Of a stretch of 64,000 bases of DNA, positions 47,071-54,718 are shown piece after piece. The position numbers and the translations under genes were made by a program. How positions within the stretch are numbered: the stretch's first letter is position 1; each line of letters begins with the position of its first letter. The stretch comes from Zunongwangia sp. HGR-M22. Its GTDB lineage: Bacteria > Bacteroidota > Bacteroidia > Flavobacteriales > Flavobacteriaceae. The notes below the pieces were generated by a model. The model saw nothing but the letters and a program-made list of their open reading frames with translations, had not been told where the DNA came from and did no database searches. The DNA lies in assembly GCF_027594425.1 (NCBI RefSeq), contig NZ_CP115159.1:1477001-1541000 (forward strand). Reading direction: 5' to 3'.

Positions 47071-48222
47071 ATGAAGAAGAAAGAAAAAATGAGGGAAAAG
47101 GGATTTGTTTTCAAGAAATATGAAGAAGAAAGCACAACTCCTTTCGAAAAACTCTTTGAAATTTTTAAAGAATTAATCACCCACACTTCGGGAGATTTAG
47201 ACGAAGCGCTCGATTGGTTACGCCAGTTAGATGAAGAATATAAACTTACCGACGACGAGTATACCATCGAAGATTTTATCGAAGATCTTAAACAAAAAGG
47301 CTATATTAAAGAAGAACTAGATCCAGACGGTGCTGATGGAGAAGGTGAGGGTTCGGGAAGTTTAAAGATTACCGCCAAAACCGAAAGAGCTATTCGCCAG
47401 CAGGCTTTAGATCAGATTTTCGGAAAAATGCGTAAAGGTAATTCAGGGAATCATCGTACAAGTCATGTTGGCCGTGGCGATGAACATACTGGCGATTTTC
47501 GTAATTATCAGTTTGGGGATTCTTTAGACCGAATTTCTATGACAGAAAGTTTACGAAATGCCCAAATCAATAATGGTATTGGTGATTTTAGTATGACGCA
47601 TGACGATTTGGTGGTTGAAGAAACACATTACAAATCGCAAATGAGTACCGTGCTTATGATCGATCTTAGCCATAGTATGATTTTGTATGGGGAAGACCGA
47701 ATTACTCCGGCTAAAAAAGTAGCCATGGCTTTGGCTGAATTAATTACTACGCGCTACCCAAAAGATACATTAGATATTATCGTTTTTGGGAATGATGCCT
47801 GGCCGGTCTCCATTGCAGATTTACCATATTTAAAAGTAGGGCCTTACCACACGAATACGGTAGATGGTTTAAAATTGGCGATGGATATTTTACGAAGAAA
47901 GAGAAATACCAACAAACAAATTTTTATGATTACCGATGGTAAACCAAGCTGTATTAGAGAACGAGATGGGAGTTATTATAAAAACAGTATGGGCTTAGAT
48001 CCCTATATTGTAGATAAGTGCTATAACATGGCACAGCAAGCAAGAAAATTGCAAATTCCTATTACGACATTTATGATTGCTCAAGATCCTTATTTGATGC
48101 AATTTATAAGGGAGTTTACACAAGCTAATCAAGGAAAAGCATTTTACACTGGCCTACAAGGCTTAGGAGAAATGATTTTTGAAGATTACGAAACAAACAG
48201 AAAAAAAAGAATTAGAGGCTAA
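47071..48222 (+). CDS. VWA domain-containing protein
   Basis: 383 residues. About 20-85 is a helical N-domain, followed by a Gly/Glu-rich linker. A VWA domain begins near 190, with an intact MIDAS motif DxSxS ('DLSHS', 198-202), and 'FMITDGKPSC' further on. The start could also be the second Met (47089). It is followed 14 bases later by a MoxR/ChlI-type AAA gene; VWA and AAA proteins of this type form chaperone-like or chelatase-like complexes. No metal-tetrapyrrole gene is nearby, so the substrate is unknown. Confidence 0.88.
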   Translation: MKKKEKMREKGFVFKKYEEESTTPFEKLFEIFKELITHTSGDLDEALDWLRQLDEEYKLTDDEYTIEDFIEDLKQKGYIKEELDPDGADGEGEGSGSLKITAKTERAIRQQALDQIFGKMRKGNSGNHRTSHVGRGDEHTGDFRNYQFGDSLDRISMTESLRNAQINNGIGDFSMTHDDLVVEETHYKSQMSTVLMIDLSHSMILYGEDRITPAKKVAMALAELITTRYPKDTLDIIVFGNDAWPVSIADLPYLKVGPYHTNTVDGLKLAMDILRRKRNTNKQIFMITDGKPSCIRERDGSYYKNSMGLDPYIVDKCYNMAQQARKLQIPITTFMIAQDPYLMQFIREFTQANQGKAFYTGLQGLGEMIFEDYETNRKKRIRG

Positions 48223-48236
48223 AAGAAAAAGAAGAT

Positions 48237-49700
48237 ATGAATATTGAAAAATTGAAAACTCTGGGAGATTTAAAATCTTCAGGATATACTAGCAAAAGTA
48301 TAAAAGACGAGCTTCGTGATAATTTAATTGAAAAAATTAAAAAAGATGAACCGGCATTTACCGGAATCCATGGGTATGATGATACCGTGATCCCTGAATT
48401 AGAACGTGCAATTTTATCGAAACATAATATTAATTTATTAGGATTACGCGGGCAGGCTAAAACTAGGTTAGCGCGTTTAATGCTAAATCTTTTAGATCAG
48501 TACATCCCGGCAGTTGAAGGTTCCGAGATAAATGACGATCCGTTGCATCCAATCTCGCGTTATGCTAAAGAGTTAATCGCTGAAAAAGGAGACCAAACGC
48601 CAATAACCTGGATTCATCGTAGTGAAAGGTTTTTTGAAAAATTAGCCACACCAGATGTAACAGTAGCCGATTTAATTGGAGATGTCGATCCTATTAAAGC
48701 CGCTAACTTAAAGCTAAGTTATGCCGATGATCGTGTGATTCATTTTGGGATGATTCCGCGAGCTAATCGAAGTATTTTTGTAATTAATGAGTTGCCCGAT
48801 TTACAGGCAAGAATTCAAGTAGCCCTTTTTAATATCCTTCAAGAAGGCGATATTCAAATTCGTGGTTTTAAACTCAGATTGCCCTTAGATATGCAATTTG
48901 TATTTACCGCAAACCCCGAAGATTATACCAATAGAGGTAGTATTGTAACGCCGCTTAAAGATAGAATTGGTTCACAGATCTTAACGCATTATCCGGAAAC
49001 TATTGAGATCGCCAAAACGATCACGCAGCAAGAAGCTAAATTAGATTCCCGACAAACCGATATGGTATATGTTCCAGAATTAGCTAAAGATTTATTAGAG
49101 CAAATTGGTTTTGAAGCTCGCGAAAGCGAATTTATCGATGAGAAAAGTGGTATTAGTGCCCGAATGAGCATTACTGCTTACGAAAATTTATTAAGTGCTG
49201 CAGAACGACGAACCTTGAAGAATGGCGAAGAAAAAACCTTACTAAGGTTTGGTGATTTTATGGGGGTAATTCCTTCAGTAACTGGTAAAGTAGAGCTGGT
49301 TTACGAAGGCGAGCAAGAAGGTGCTGCAGCCGTTGCAACACAGTTGTTAGGCGATGCGGTAAAAACACTATTTCCAGAGTATTTCCCAAAGATTGAGAAA
49401 CTGCAAAGGCCTGATGATAAAACACCGTATGATAATTTGGTAGAATGGTTTTTTGAACAAACCGGTTTTGAATTACCTGATAATTTAACCGATGAAGAAT
49501 ATAAGAAAAAGCTAGATGAAATAGAGCCATTAAATGAGCTGATCGAAAAATATCAACCCAAAATGGATAAAATCGACACCTATTTTCTAAAAGAATTTTT
49601 GCTATGGGGATTAGTTGAATTTAAGAAGCTTAGTAAACAACGCTATACAAAAGGTATTCAATTTAATGATCTTTACGGAAGTTATATCAGCGGATTATAA
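48237..49700 (+). CDS. MoxR/magnesium-chelatase-like AAA ATPase
   Basis: 487 residues. Walker A variant 'GLRGQAKTR' at 69-77, and a Walker B region reading 'SIFVINELPDLQ', with Asn where Asp is usual but the catalytic Glu kept; I believe this form is normal in this subfamily. Then 'LQEGDIQIRGF', sensor-1 'FVFTANPEDYTN' and a lid domain with 'SGISARMSI'. It should act with the VWA protein encoded just upstream, remodelling or loading cofactor into some target. A strong terminator closes the two-gene operon. Confidence 0.9.
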   Translation: MNIEKLKTLGDLKSSGYTSKSIKDELRDNLIEKIKKDEPAFTGIHGYDDTVIPELERAILSKHNINLLGLRGQAKTRLARLMLNLLDQYIPAVEGSEINDDPLHPISRYAKELIAEKGDQTPITWIHRSERFFEKLATPDVTVADLIGDVDPIKAANLKLSYADDRVIHFGMIPRANRSIFVINELPDLQARIQVALFNILQEGDIQIRGFKLRLPLDMQFVFTANPEDYTNRGSIVTPLKDRIGSQILTHYPETIEIAKTITQQEAKLDSRQTDMVYVPELAKDLLEQIGFEARESEFIDEKSGISARMSITAYENLLSAAERRTLKNGEEKTLLRFGDFMGVIPSVTGKVELVYEGEQEGAAAVATQLLGDAVKTLFPEYFPKIEKLQRPDDKTPYDNLVEWFFEQTGFELPDNLTDEEYKKKLDEIEPLNELIEKYQPKMDKIDTYFLKEFLLWGLVEFKKLSKQRYTKGIQFNDLYGSYISGL

Positions 49701-49728
49701 TTTTTCCTATTGAAATAAAAAGAACAAA

Positions 49729-49764
49729 AGCCCGATTTCACTAAAAATCGGGCTTTTGTTTTTT
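49729..49764 (+). terminator. rho-independent terminator after the VWA-AAA operon
   Basis: AGCCCGATTT pairs with AAATCGGGCT around six bases, then TTTGTTTTTT. It isolates the following thr leader from upstream transcription. Confidence 0.92.
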
Positions 49765-49834
49765 CGAAATTATGAAAATCTCACATTTTTTCAGCAAAAG
49801 AGAGGTTTTAGTTTTTTTTATGTTCTTATTTGTA

Positions 49835-49842
49835 TACTTTTA
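49835..49842 (+). promoter_or_regulatory. candidate -7 box before the thr leader
   Basis: TACTTTTA differs from the TAnnTTTG consensus by the last base. It lies about 30 bases before the leader ATG, after the terminator and within AT-rich DNA. Confidence 0.35.
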
Positions 49843-49864
49843 TCACATCTTTTTAAGGAAAATA

Positions 49865-49966
49865 ATGAAGAGTTTTAAATTAAATAATGGTTCTGGGATT
49901 ACTTCTACAACAGGAGCTGCTATTTCTATTATTATTACTCGCACATTTATTACCCCTTTGGGGTAA
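49865..49966 (+). CDS. Thr/Ile-rich leader peptide of the thr operon (candidate attenuator)
   Basis: 33 codons starting at an ATG preceded by AAGGA at suitable spacing. The peptide begins MKSFKLNNGSG and then carries 6 Thr and 6 Ile among residues 12-33, including the run 'ISIIITRTFIT', directly upstream of thrA. This is the composition expected of a leader that senses charged tRNA-Thr and tRNA-Ile, as in enterobacterial thrL (a known case, not homologous in sequence). An in-frame extension to 49772 is judged untranslated because of the ribosome site at 49855-49859. It ends 81 bases before thrA and the last codons form a hairpin. Confidence 0.72.
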   Translation: MKSFKLNNGSGITSTTGAAISIIITRTFITPLG

Positions 49967-49968
49967 TA
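49948..49968 (+). promoter_or_regulatory. 9-bp hairpin over the leader peptide stop codon
   Basis: TATTACCCC pairs perfectly with GGGGTAATA around TTT. The stem includes codons 28-33 and the TAA of the leader peptide. The T-rich stretch (AATTTT) begins some 8 bases later, so it is not a classical terminator by itself. It is the natural candidate for the structure controlled by the translating ribosome. Confidence 0.6.
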
Positions 49969-50047
49969 TGTATATAATTTTCCGTCCGCACTCACACACG
50001 TTTTTCAACGAAACTTAAACTTTTATTTCAACTTTTAAATTATTCTT

Positions 50048-52495
50048 ATGAATATCCTAAAATTCGGAGGATCTTCTTTAGCCTCTCCGGAGCGAATCAA
50101 ACTTGTAGCTGAAACTGTAAAAAAGCATGTGCAACAAGATAAAACCTTAGCAGTATTCTCGGCATTTGGAGGGGTTACCAACGATCTTTTAAAAATGGCA
50201 GATCTTGCCGCTAATGAGGATTTAGCTTATAAACAAATTCTTGCAAAAAATGAAAAAAGACATTTAGATGCGGTAAAAGAATTAATTCCGGTACAAAATC
50301 AAAGCGGAGTTCTAAGTAAAGTAAAAACCGAATTTAATCGTTTGGAAACTTTATATGAAGGGGTGTATTTGCTAAACGAACTTTCCAACAAAACCAAACA
50401 TGTAGTGTCTAGTTTTGGTGAAATATTGTCCTCTTTAATTATTGCGGAGTATTTTAAAAGTCTGGCTACCGATGCACTCTTAATTGATTCTAGAGAGTTG
50501 ATTGTTTGTAAGAATAACAATGAAAAGATTCAGCTGAATTATGAACTGACGAATAAAAATGTAGTTCAGTATTTTAAAGAAAATGATGCTAGTTTATTTG
50601 TGGTTCCTGGATTTGTAGCAAAAAATGAACAAGGTGTACCCAGTACTTTAGGACGAGGCGGTAGCGATTTTACAGCTGCAATTTTTGGTGGTGCTTTAGA
50701 TGTTGCCAAAGTAATCATTTACACCGATGTAAACGGAATGTACACTGCAAATCCAAATGTGGTGCATCAGGCGTATCCGCTAGAAAAAATATCGTATCAG
50801 GAAGCGATGGAATTATCGCATTTCGGAGCTAAAGTTCTATATCCACCAACGCTTCAACCCTTATTGGATAAAGGGATTCAAATTCATATAAAAAATACAT
50901 TTTCACCAGATGATGCCGGTACATTGATTTCTAAATCTAGTGAAGAAAACTTTAGATGGGTTACTGGTATAACGCATATCGACGATATCAAATTATTAAA
51001 TATTGAAGGTAGTGGAATGGTTGGGATTCCAGGTTTTTCTAAGCGATTTTTTGAAACACTTTATCAGGAGAATATCAATGTTGTTCTTATCACTCAGGCA
51101 TCTTCAGAACATAGTATTTGTGTAGCTGTAAAAGGAGATGAAGCTCAGGTTGCAAAAGAGGCTTTAGATGAAGCTTTTGCGGTAGAAATCGACTATCAAA
51201 AGATCAAACCGGTAGAAATTGAAGGAAATGTAGCCATTATTGCCTTAGTAGGAGATCGAATGAAGAGTCACCACGGGTTAAGCGGTAAAATGTTTAGCGC
51301 ACTAGGGAATAATAATATTAATATTAGAGCCATAGCGCAAGGATCTTCAGAGCGTAATATATCTGCAATCATTGCTAAAAAAGATATCAATAAAGCCCTC
51401 AATACGCTTCACGAGCAATTTTTTGAAGTACCTTCTAAAGAACTAAACCTATTTATAACCGGTGTAGGAAATGTAGGAAGTAAATTGTTAGCGCAATTAA
51501 AGAAACAGGAAAAATACTTACTTGAAAATCTACGATTGAAAGTTCGTGTTCTTGGTTTATCGAATTCCAGAAAAATGGTTTTTGATGAAAACGGACTCGA
51601 TTTAAGCAATTGGGAAGAAGCCTTAGGCAATGGTGAAAAAGCCAGTAAGCACGACTTTTTTAATCGTGTTAAAGAATTCAACCTTAGAAACAGCATTTTT
51701 GTAGATAATACGGCAAGTGCCGAGATTTCAAAATGGTATAAAGAATATTTAGCAAACTCCATTGCCGTGGTTACCTGTAATAAAATTGCAGCCGCAGACG
51801 ATTTGGTGAACTATCAGCATTTACAAGAACTGTCTAGAGAATATGGAGCTTCTTTCCTTTATGAAACCAATGTAGGTGCCGGATTACCGATTATCGATAC
51901 CCTTAAAAATTTAATCGCTTCCGGAGATAGAATTCATAAAATTCAGGCGGTATTATCGGGTAGTTTAAATTTTGTTTTTAATACCTATAATGCTACTGAA
52001 CCTTTCTACAAAACGGTAGAGCAAGCGATGGAAGAGGGGTATACGGAACCTGATCCTAAAATCGATTTAAGCGGGGTAGATGTAGCTCGTAAAATATTGA
52101 TTTTGGCCCGTGAAAGCGGATTGAAAATGGAGCTTAGTGATATTGAAAATAAAAGTTTCCTTTCCGAAGAAAGCCTAAATACCGAGAATAATGAAGATTT
52201 CTTTAAATTACTTCAGCAAGATGAAGGTAAATTCAAAGAAATCTACGAAGATGCAGCAAAAGAAGGGGCTCAGTTAAAATATGTAGCCCAGCTTGAAGAT
52301 GGTAAAGCTTCGGTAGGATTACAAAAAGTAGGTTCCGAGCATCCATTTTATAATTTAAGCGGTAGCGATAATATCGTATTATTCTTTACCGATCGATACA
52401 GTGTACAACCACTAATCGTAAAAGGAGCAGGTGCCGGAGCCGATGTAACCGCTTCAGGAATTTTTGCTGATGTTATACGAATAGGTAAAAAATAA
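50048..52495 (+). CDS. thrA: bifunctional aspartate kinase / homoserine dehydrogenase
   Basis: 815 residues, the usual ThrA length. The N-terminal aspartate kinase starts 'MNILKFGGSSLASPERIK' and contains 'GRGGSDFTAA' and 'TDVNGMYTANP'. Tandem ACT regulatory domains follow (about 305-460, with 'ITQASSEHSICVAV' and 'RAIAQGSSERNISAII'). The C-terminal homoserine dehydrogenase has NAD-binding 'ITGVGNVGSKL' near 470 and 'YETNVGAGLPIIDTLKNLIASGD'. It catalyses the first and third steps from aspartate to threonine. It is the first enzyme gene behind the Thr/Ile leader; thrB follows after two bases. Confidence 0.97.
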   Translation: MNILKFGGSSLASPERIKLVAETVKKHVQQDKTLAVFSAFGGVTNDLLKMADLAANEDLAYKQILAKNEKRHLDAVKELIPVQNQSGVLSKVKTEFNRLETLYEGVYLLNELSNKTKHVVSSFGEILSSLIIAEYFKSLATDALLIDSRELIVCKNNNEKIQLNYELTNKNVVQYFKENDASLFVVPGFVAKNEQGVPSTLGRGGSDFTAAIFGGALDVAKVIIYTDVNGMYTANPNVVHQAYPLEKISYQEAMELSHFGAKVLYPPTLQPLLDKGIQIHIKNTFSPDDAGTLISKSSEENFRWVTGITHIDDIKLLNIEGSGMVGIPGFSKRFFETLYQENINVVLITQASSEHSICVAVKGDEAQVAKEALDEAFAVEIDYQKIKPVEIEGNVAIIALVGDRMKSHHGLSGKMFSALGNNNINIRAIAQGSSERNISAIIAKKDINKALNTLHEQFFEVPSKELNLFITGVGNVGSKLLAQLKKQEKYLLENLRLKVRVLGLSNSRKMVFDENGLDLSNWEEALGNGEKASKHDFFNRVKEFNLRNSIFVDNTASAEISKWYKEYLANSIAVVTCNKIAAADDLVNYQHLQELSREYGASFLYETNVGAGLPIIDTLKNLIASGDRIHKIQAVLSGSLNFVFNTYNATEPFYKTVEQAMEEGYTEPDPKIDLSGVDVARKILILARESGLKMELSDIENKSFLSEESLNTENNEDFFKLLQQDEGKFKEIYEDAAKEGAQLKYVAQLEDGKASVGLQKVGSEHPFYNLSGSDNIVLFFTDRYSVQPLIVKGAGAGADVTASGIFADVIRIGKK

Positions 52496-52497
52496 CC

Positions 52498-53418
52498 ATG
52501 GAAGAAATAAAAGTTTTTGCGCCGGCAACGGTGGCTAATCTTTCTTGCGGTTTCGATGTTTTAGGTTGCTGTCTGGATAATGTTGGCGACGAGATGGTCA
52601 TTAAAAAGAACGATTTTAACGAGCTTCGAATTACCAAATTGGAAGGACAAGATCTTCCTATGGAAGTTGATCAGAATGTAGCAGGTGTAGCAGTAAAAGC
52701 TATGCTCGAAAAGCTGCAATCTAACGCCGGTTTTGATATCGAAATTTATAAGAAAATAAAAGCAGGAAGCGGAATTGGTAGTAGTGCTGCCAGTTCTGCC
52801 GGTGCTGTCTTTGCCGTAAATAAATTATTAGGTTCCCCATTTACTAAAAATCAATTGATACCTTTTGCGATGGAAGGAGAACGATTGGCTAGCGGAAATG
52901 CGCATGCCGATAACGTGGCGCCGGCCTTGTTAGGCGGATTTACATTAGTAAAAAGTTATTATCCTTTAGAGGTTTTATCGCTACCATCTCCGGAAGAATT
53001 GAATGTAGTAATTCTTCATCCGCAAATTGAAGTGAAAACGAAAGATTCTCGTGCAATCATCAAACGCAATATTAGTTTGGATAAAGCGGTAAGCCAATGG
53101 GGGAATTTGGGCGCATTGGTAAGCGCTTTATATACTAACGATTATGATTTGTTGGGCAGAAGCTTAAAAGATGAAATTGTAGAACCGATTCGTTCTATTT
53201 TAATACCATATTTCGATGAAATTAAAGTACTTTCTTTAGAAAGTGGCGCACTCGGATTCGGAATTTCAGGATCTGGGCCTTCGGTTTACGCAATGTGTCG
53301 TGGCCGCGAGCAAGCTGAAAATGTAAAACAGCAGATTGCTCAATTTATGGAAAAACAAAGTATAACCTACGATCTTCATGTATCAAAAATAAACCCTGAA
53401 GGAGTTAAAATCTTATAA
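52498..53418 (+). CDS. thrB: homoserine kinase
   Basis: 306 residues of the GHMP kinase family. The N-terminal 'FAPATVANLSCGFDVLGCCLD' and the ATP-binding glycine/serine loop 'GSGIGSSAASSAGAVFAVN' (about 90-108) are diagnostic, and 'GISGSGPSVYAM' is the third GHMP motif. It phosphorylates homoserine for threonine synthase. The gene sits between thrA and thrC with gaps of 2 and 4 bases, a tight operon. Confidence 0.96.
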   Translation: MEEIKVFAPATVANLSCGFDVLGCCLDNVGDEMVIKKNDFNELRITKLEGQDLPMEVDQNVAGVAVKAMLEKLQSNAGFDIEIYKKIKAGSGIGSSAASSAGAVFAVNKLLGSPFTKNQLIPFAMEGERLASGNAHADNVAPALLGGFTLVKSYYPLEVLSLPSPEELNVVILHPQIEVKTKDSRAIIKRNISLDKAVSQWGNLGALVSALYTNDYDLLGRSLKDEIVEPIRSILIPYFDEIKVLSLESGALGFGISGSGPSVYAMCRGREQAENVKQQIAQFMEKQSITYDLHVSKINPEGVKIL

Positions 53419-53422
53419 AACA

Positions 53423-54718
53423 ATGAACTATTTTAGTCTGAATAATCGAAGTCATTCTTCCAGTTTTGAGAATGCGGTAATTAGAGGGCTGGCTCCCGAT
53501 AAAGGATTATATTTTCCCGAAAATATCGAAAAATTACCGGATTCTTTTTTTGAAAAACTACCTGATTTACCACAAACTGAAGTGGCTTATCAGGCCATTA
53601 AACAATTTGTGGGTGATGAAATTCCTGAAAAAGAGCTTAAAGAAATTATTGCTACAACTTTAGATTTTGAGTTTCCGATAGTTCACATAAAAGACAACGT
53701 TTATACTTTAGAGCTTTTTCATGGACCAACTTTAGCTTTTAAAGATGTTGGTGCTCGTTTTATGGCGGGAAGTTTAGGTTATTTTATTACCAAAAATGAA
53801 GTGGGTAAAGTAACTGTTTTGGTAGCTACGTCTGGAGATACAGGAGGGGCAGTCGCTAATGGATTTTTAGGAGTAGAAGGTATCGATGTGGTGATTTTAT
53901 ACCCTAAAGGGAAAGTGAGTAAAATACAGGAAAAGCAATTAACCACGCTTGGGCAAAATGTAACCGCTTTAGAGATTGATGGCGCTTTTGATAAATGCCA
54001 GGATATGGTGAAGCAGGCATTTTTAGATGATGAAATTCAGTCGAAACGCCAGTTAACTTCAGCAAATTCGATTAATGTAGCGCGCTGGCTTCCGCAGATG
54101 TTTTATTACTTTTTAGCCTATCGCCAATTAGCTTCCGAAGGAAAAGATATTGTCTTTTCTGTGCCCAGTGGTAATTTCGGAAATATTTGTGCCGGGATGG
54201 TCGCTAAAGAATTAGGGCTTCCTATAAAACATTTTATAGCCGCTAATAATTCCAATAGAACGATAACTGATTATTTAGAAACAGGCAATTACCAGCCAAA
54301 ACCAAGTGTTTCAACAATTTCTAACGCGATGGATATCGGTAATCCAAGTAATTTTGTACGGATTTTGCAATTATTCCAAAATGAATACGGAAATGTAAAA
54401 GAAAACCTGACTAGCTTCAGTTATGATGATGAGGTTACCAAACAAGCTATGGATTCAGTTTATAAGGAAACAGGCTATGTGATGGATCCTCATGGAGCGG
54501 TTGGTTATCTTGGATTGCAAGGCTATTTTGAAACACATCCTGATGAGGTTGGCGCCTTTTTAGAAACTGCCCATCCTTGTAAATTTCGAGAAACAGTTCA
54601 GGAAGCAATCGGAAAAGAAATTGAAATTCCAGATGCAATCAAATCGGTTCTCGATAAAGAGAAAAAAGCTATTTCAATTAGAGATTACGAAGATTTAAAA
54701 GCCTTTTTGCTAAAGTAG
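53423..54718 (+). CDS. thrC: threonine synthase
   Basis: 431 residues, PLP-dependent lyase converting O-phosphohomoserine to threonine. The PLP-binding Lys is in 'HGPTLAFKDVGARFMA' near residue 105, with 'VATSGDTGGAVA' and 'VPSGNFGNICAG' for phosphate and cofactor binding. Length and motifs match the E. coli-like short class. Last gene of the thr operon; no obvious terminator with a T-run was found in the following 100 bases. Confidence 0.96.
   Translation: MNYFSLNNRSHSSSFENAVIRGLAPDKGLYFPENIEKLPDSFFEKLPDLPQTEVAYQAIKQFVGDEIPEKELKEIIATTLDFEFPIVHIKDNVYTLELFHGPTLAFKDVGARFMAGSLGYFITKNEVGKVTVLVATSGDTGGAVANGFLGVEGIDVVILYPKGKVSKIQEKQLTTLGQNVTALEIDGAFDKCQDMVKQAFLDDEIQSKRQLTSANSINVARWLPQMFYYFLAYRQLASEGKDIVFSVPSGNFGNICAGMVAKELGLPIKHFIAANNSNRTITDYLETGNYQPKPSVSTISNAMDIGNPSNFVRILQLFQNEYGNVKENLTSFSYDDEVTKQAMDSVYKETGYVMDPHGAVGYLGLQGYFETHPDEVGAFLETAHPCKFRETVQEAIGKEIEIPDAIKSVLDKEKKAISIRDYEDLKAFLLK

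Follow-up and report, generated by a model that had tools for sequence, protein, structure and literature searches.

What does a leader peptide control when the hairpin at its end lies over its own stop codon and no intrinsic terminator follows? The question is raised by the thrABC operon of the window (by which we mean the whole stretch of DNA analysed, 64,000 nt from Zunongwangia sp. HGR-M22). Leader-peptide attenuation is a textbook mechanism whose normal output is an intrinsic terminator. The operon was assigned from protein family profiles:

50048-52495, + strand: thrA, bifunctional aspartate kinase / homoserine dehydrogenase I (NF006959, 1049.5 bits, cut-off 726)
52498-53418, + strand: thrB, homoserine kinase (TIGR00191, 245 bits, cut-off 168)
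53423-54718, + strand: thrC, threonine synthase (TIGR00260, 296 bits, cut-off 167)

Further upstream, the two adjacent genes 47071-48222 and 48237-49700 weakly resemble subunits of Mg/cobalt chelatases, with every score under its NCBIfam cut-off; their products are probably a VWA protein and an AAA+ ATPase of the MoxR type. The interval that separates the thr leader from the gene before it carries, at 49723-49760, a strong hairpin (AAAGCCCGATTT..AAATCGGGCTTT) that has a T-rich tail on either strand. It is likely a terminator acting in both directions, which would set the thr transcription unit apart. The leader itself comprises:

49835-49842, + strand: TACTTTTA, a near-match to the Bacteroidota -7 element TAnnTTTG, 30 nt 5' of the leader ATG
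49865-49966, + strand: leader peptide ORF of 33 codons with a Thr/Ile-rich end, kept in the family
49922-49954, + strand: regulatory stretch, ATT TCT ATT ATT ATT ACT CGC ACA TTT ATT ACC
49948-49968, + strand: stop-codon hairpin H1, TATTACCCC-TTT-GGGGTAATA, with the TAA (49964-49966) inside its 3' arm

The ORF starts with an ATG at 49865-49867 and encodes MKSFKLNNGSGITSTTGAAISIIITRTFITPLG, with Thr or Ile at 12 of its final 22 codons. Eight Ile/Thr codons fall within the regulatory stretch, and the last of them, ACC, opens the core of H1. The hairpin is a perfect 9-bp stem in the window, pairing 49948-49956 with 49960-49968 around a loop at 49957-49959. An earlier note on this DNA had described the ORF, its Thr/Ile count and the coordinates of the stem, all of which were exact on recheck, and had remarked on the lack of a T-run directly behind the hairpin, which we confirmed in the window. 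The leader frame is open further 5', and the ORF listing starts it at 49772; the probable start at 49865 rests on the same-genus relatives and on the position of the promoter motif in the family.

We take TAnnTTTG to be the consensus of the Bacteroidota -7 promoter element; the window copy has a mismatch in the last base. Among the family leaders, 108 of 125 have an exact TAnnTTTG within 70 nt 5' of the leader ATG (5 with the reversed-motif control), at a median distance of 26 nt, and the motif makes it very likely that no other ORF precedes the leader on the thrABC mRNA. The AAGGA ribosome site previously assigned to the ORF is not a family feature: SD-like motifs (AGGA, GGAG or AAGG) precede the ATG in 10 of 127 leaders. 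We also considered, and rejected, that translation shifts or reads through into the +1 frame that overlaps the leader (49887-50018); that frame closes soon after the hairpin in other genera (by eye, e.g. L021, L024), so the letters common to both frames are kept at the nucleotide level.

We compared 153 regions upstream of thrA, approximately one per genus (30 from relatives, 2 from the class set and, from the family set, 21 loci plus 100 stretches), of which 152 belong to the window's family and the remaining one to a different family of its order. The family set was drawn from among the listed matches of 185 family genomes with a match, with five listed ones left out. By script, a CCC/GGG hairpin lies upstream of thrA in 138 of the 153, and in 132 of these 138 it is met by the end of an ORF with at least four Thr/Ile in its last 15 codons, compared with 25.1 of 138 when the 160 nt upstream were dinucleotide-shuffled (mean of 10). 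With a stricter cut of at least six Thr/Ile, the values are 104 real and 2.7 shuffled. The six leaders below the first cut (L013, L030, L214, L243, L267, L271) each end at the hairpin by eye, L243 weakly; L013 was scored by the script on an internal stem rather than on the stop hairpin. Conservation in the family relative to shuffles rules out chance or an accident of one genome, and the check that the earlier note had suggested, a conserved Thr/Ile-rich ORF with a stop hairpin, largely bears out its reading. Its expectation of synonymous-only changes fails; same-genus leaders also differ nonsynonymously.

The leader is dispensable, as 15 of the 153 thrA loci do not have the hairpin leader. 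Three of the 15 are downstream of another gene (L018, L033, L264), and several have a promoter-like motif directly 5' of thrA. Four extra loci of the window's family came from the class set: two have the hairpin, one of those with a T-rich tail, and two do not. At five further loci (L115, L164, L205, L238, L266) the hairpin is 160-194 nt 5' of thrA compared with the usual 80-100 or so, with extra sequence between the box region (see below) and thrA.

The codon content of the leaders is focused on the hairpin. Over the final 13 codons through ACC, 38% are Thr and 18% Ile, a combined frame contrast of 0.559 versus 0.047 and 0.024 in the other two frames, which is biased by the frame having been chosen for its Thr/Ile content. 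Counting upstream from the hairpin ACC, the Thr frequency is 1.0,.56,.47,.32,.48,.61 and.43 at codons 0-6, and then.20,.12,.16 and.10 at codons 7-10. A stalled ribosome covers about 12-15 nt ahead of its A site; by position, the Thr-rich codons 0-6 roughly match the stretch on which a ribosome would have to stall to touch the 5' arm of H1. That this is a leader which senses Thr and Ile we regard as very likely.

As a single sequence, the 221-nt leader of the window has an unremarkable fold (z -1.8; 7 of 200 shuffles equally good), and the hairpin can be seen to be real because it is conserved. CCCC-N3-5-GGGG occurs at six places in the window's genome, with CCCCTTTGGGG at the thr leader only; none of the other five is leader-like by eye. 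The H1 core, ACCC-loop-GGGT, is present in 129 of 132 family leaders, with its ACC in frame with the leader stop in all 129 (here too the frame was picked for Thr/Ile content). In 119 of the 129, the stop codon has its first base no more than 9 nt upstream and no more than 3 nt downstream of the end of ..GGGT, which puts it within the loop, within the 3' arm or immediately 3' of H1 at any loop length. None of three core pairs has compensating changes within the family (RNAalifold, 44 sequences) because the core hardly varies. The first pair outside the core is paired in 75 of 129 leaders against 56.0 expected, and the second, at 64 of 129 against 65.6, gives no signal. Five of the six H1 loci of family f30 (L123, L124, L351, L353, L356) have the strands exchanged, CGGG-loop-CCCG, and their loop contains the stop codon (TAA or TGA); what is kept there is the structure of the stop hairpin, not its sequence. 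We consider H1 to be probably a ribosome-gated switch.

Three further elements accompany H1:

49902-49916, + strand: H0, a stem inside the leader, CTTCT/AGGAG with one G-U, 5 bp in the window
49971-49984, + strand: downstream box, TATATAATTTTCCG, at a fixed spacing from H1
49999-50010, + strand: H2, a second stem between the box and thrA, CGTT/AACG, 4 bp in the window

In 115 of 132 leaders the family form of the box, TATATATTCTTCCG, starts 7-10 nt downstream of the GGG arm; it carries 9.1 bits, compared with 3.5-3.9 in five shuffled sets. Both flanking stems vary in sequence (H0 is CTCCT/AGGAG in the same-genus L007), and H2 is longer in many relatives than in the window. The H0 region has 15.04 expected pairs versus 12.72 in shuffles (n = 132, p about 2e-12), with a positional pairing peak of 1.68 versus 0.42; H2 has 4.85 versus 2.40 (n = 132, p about 1e-18), both p-values treating as independent sequences that are related. 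Pairing of the freed G arm of H1 peaks at +16 to +20 (0.14-0.23 per position versus 0.05); overall, an alternative helix for this arm is not significant (0.773 versus 0.735, p 0.06). A general H0-H1 antiterminator was rejected: it is suggestive in single species by eye, with no common pattern, and folding with a blocked arm gave only weak peaks. In family f50 (L335, L336, L337, L343) a CATATCACC-nnn-GGGGC-like stretch lies behind H1 and might form a second small CC/GG hairpin.

No excess of intrinsic terminators was found. Between H1 and thrA, terminator-like sites occur in 25 of 132 leaders compared with 29.4 ± 5.2 in shuffles, and a + strand terminator scan of 49864-50047 in the window returned none. 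An intrinsic terminator at H1 or H2 was rejected on this lack of excess and on a mean T content after H2 of 0.38. As controls, the trp operon of the same genome (L146) has a Bacteroid-trp leader (RF01692, 66.2 bits, gathering score 49) with WWW codons, and upstream of hisG (L305) there is a leader, MRTIQLHHHHHIYYCAQAR, with HHHHH; both have a GC stem with a T-run between leader and operon. Upstream of ilvD in this genome, no leader was recognised. Rfam covariance models gave no match in the window at gathering score (relaxing to E<=10 gave three hits below threshold, all to unrelated families), and Pfam/NCBIfam profiles matched no family in two leader peptides, which as short queries give low power.

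The RNA behind H1 is poor in G, with a C/G ratio of 2.21 (121 loci) versus 0.84 for 11 leaderless thrA and 1.15 for 19 window flanks. Such RNA would suit Rho, though the contrast is mainly loss of G, C being just 0.185. To ask where else the module occurs, a model (R1; 89 positions, 3 pairs) was run on 40 genomes and gave a single match in each of 20 at E<=1, 16 of which are the thrA leader; the other four are weak, with E 0.03-0.8 (G048, G044, G009, G037). On this run we rejected a general output module at other operons, but R1 also missed at least two leaders recognised by eye (G007, G020), so that the module may still occur elsewhere.

From the parts that comparison between genomes brings out, i.e. 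the ORF, the bias and position of its codons, H1, the box, H0, H2, the promoter motif and the lack of terminator enrichment, we tentatively propose that thrABC is controlled by a ribosome-gated attenuator in which H1 takes the place of the terminator. The sensor would be charged tRNA-Thr (and tRNA-Ile), read by the ribosome on the last leader codons. When threonine is scarce, the ribosome would stall on the Thr/Ile codons abutting H1, with its leading edge covering the 5' arm; H1 could not then form and RNA polymerase would proceed into thrA. When threonine is plentiful, the ribosome would reach the stop codon inside or just 3' of H1 and depart, allowing H1 to form. H1 together with the AU-rich box at its fixed distance would then pause the polymerase and transcription would end, most likely through Rho or another factor, which we favour because there is no U-tract behind H1. 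To our knowledge, a hairpin at least 8 nt upstream of an AU-rich box is not a known terminator layout. We infer, in graded steps, that stalling would open H1, that H1 would lower expression, and that it would do so via premature termination; as the output, premature non-intrinsic termination strikes us as plausible while falling short of probable.

The same elements could serve a Thr/Ile leader whose output is mRNA processing or decay, the box being cut by an endonuclease, with the ribosome or H1 deciding and H2 shielding the thrABC mRNA at its 5' end. In favour are the lack of terminator enrichment and the box itself, which is conserved, single-stranded, rich in AU and poor in G, and lies between two conserved hairpins. 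A generic AU-rich cleavage site, however, needs neither the fixed spacing between box and H1 nor the CG end of the box, and known amino-acid leaders act mostly on transcription or translation, and we regard processing as unlikely. We favour pausing or factor-dependent termination at H1 and the box, with mRNA processing as the main rival. The suggestion of the earlier note is supported: there is a Thr/Ile leader, H1 is kept and no terminator is enriched, and the output step may be termination, pausing or stability.

Classical attenuation could also operate through a terminator that our scans missed, e.g. a weak or long-range one in which H2 is joined by the A/T-rich sequence 5' of thrA. The H2 stem is conserved, 25 of 116 detected H2 stems have at least 5 T in the next 8 nt, and the trp and his leaders of the window's genome are classical; yet terminator-like sites are no commoner than in shuffles, the T content after H2 is below the 0.42 of the region, and H2 has just 4 bp in the window, which together make a missed terminator quite improbable. 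Translational control is known for other leader peptides (erm, mycobacterial cys leaders), and the leader might likewise hide or open the thrA initiation site by alternative folding, or act by reinitiation. Placing a ribosome on the Thr codons leaves the predicted openness of the thrA start unchanged (0.64 versus 0.63 over the -15 nt region, 0.41 versus 0.41 at the start codon; 117 loci), and about 80 nt from leader stop to thrA is far for reinitiation; on these predictions control of thrA translation would be very improbable. Least probable of all, H1 and the box may be the site of a regulatory protein with the peptide a bystander or just clearing the site, which the near-invariant H1 core and the conserved box sequence at its fixed distance would fit, but which leaves unexplained the Thr/Ile codons packed against the hairpin and the in-frame ACC in 129 of 129 (with the caveat of frame selection), and which the f30 swap, keeping structure and not sequence, argues against.

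The stop hairpin can be followed outside the family. We examined 82 Bacteroidia class loci (duplicates L327-L331 uncounted, L344 excluded), from among 97 genomes with a match of which two listed ones were left out; at L135 the ORF shown by the script is not the leader of that locus. A hairpin over the leader stop codon is present at 20 loci in six other families, none of the 20 with a detected terminator. In family f55, by contrast, 14 Thr/Ile leaders have a detected terminator in 9 and a stop hairpin in none. The other 48 loci have neither layout by script, 42 of them being without a Thr/Ile-rich ORF and 6 having the ORF only. Named examples, taken by script and eye from 80 of 585 candidate loci and kept outside these tallies, are Kordia, Flavobacterium, Arenibacter, Aquaticitalea and a Fulvivirga MAG for the stop hairpin, and Pedobacter and Mucilaginibacter (family f55) for the terminator type. 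Two loci are unusual: L054, in a MAG labelled Bdellovibrionales, has a stop-hairpin thr leader, TACCCCTTTGGGGTA, before thrA (transfer or a mis-binned contig), and L080, in a Bacteroidales MAG, has a Thr-rich leader (..TTTTMTTPGKGVVIII) with its end spanned by a 12-bp hairpin, which may be another layout.

H1 and the AU-rich box could form a so far undescribed polymerase pause/termination module that represents a widespread Bacteroidota class of terminator-less attenuators, an idea we hold with some reserve. In that class a hairpin containing or abutting the leader stop would be the sensor-coupled switch and might, with a similar degree of reserve, be what replaces at thr the intrinsic terminator of the f55, his and trp leaders. 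The element is short, and it marks a previously unannotated small ORF 5' of thrA in many genomes.

Several known systems share parts of this arrangement. The E. coli thrL attenuator, which we take to be Rfam Thr_leader and Pfam Leader_Thr, likewise has a short ORF rich in Thr/Ile codons directly before thrABC, its own promoter and an internal leader stem. Unlike thrL, leaders of the window type show no terminators beyond chance and keep a hairpin over the leader stop codon, and Rfam, Pfam and NCBIfam searches gave no match; we set them apart from the thrL family because an intrinsic terminator was tested for and not found. In E. coli tnaC, free tryptophan is sensed via peptide-induced arrest and attenuation is Rho-dependent, with no stop-codon hairpin. 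What tnaC would have in common with the thr leader is regulation by a ribosome located on the leader stop or close to it, as proposed here, and G-poor RNA behind; it differs in its arrest-based sensing of free tryptophan, and the stop-codon hairpin belongs to the thr leader. The Bacteroid-trp (RF01692) and his leaders of the window's genome are also cognate-codon leader peptides before a biosynthetic operon, but have a GC-rich terminator with a T-run, which the thr leader does not.

Candidate actinobacterial cys leader peptides are reported to have a cognate codon run near the stop and no conserved terminator, and a Rho/tna-like mechanism was suggested by the authors (PMC1262725). They resemble the thr leader in the codon run close to the stop and in being terminator-less, and differ in amino acid and phylum. 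For Flavobacterium psychrophilum, one study reports clues to leader-peptide attenuation upstream of amino-acid operons, naming elements at pheA and hisG (PMC9723704). The literature searched, some of it in part, has no description of a stop-hairpin thr element; thrA may be in Table S7 of PMC9723704. Within that literature, leader-peptide attenuation is known, and what appears to be new is a thr layout with a stop-codon hairpin and no intrinsic terminator. The closest comparison is with the f55 thr leaders, which are also Thr/Ile-rich and stand before an orthologous thrA but are classical, with a terminator in 9 of 14 and no stop hairpin. Both layouts thus occur before orthologous thrA in one phylum, and terminator-type trp and his leaders occur beside a terminator-less thr leader in one genome, a natural comparison for the role of a hairpin without a U-tract, for the control of a nearby polymerase by a terminating ribosome, and for the termination factors of Bacteroidota.
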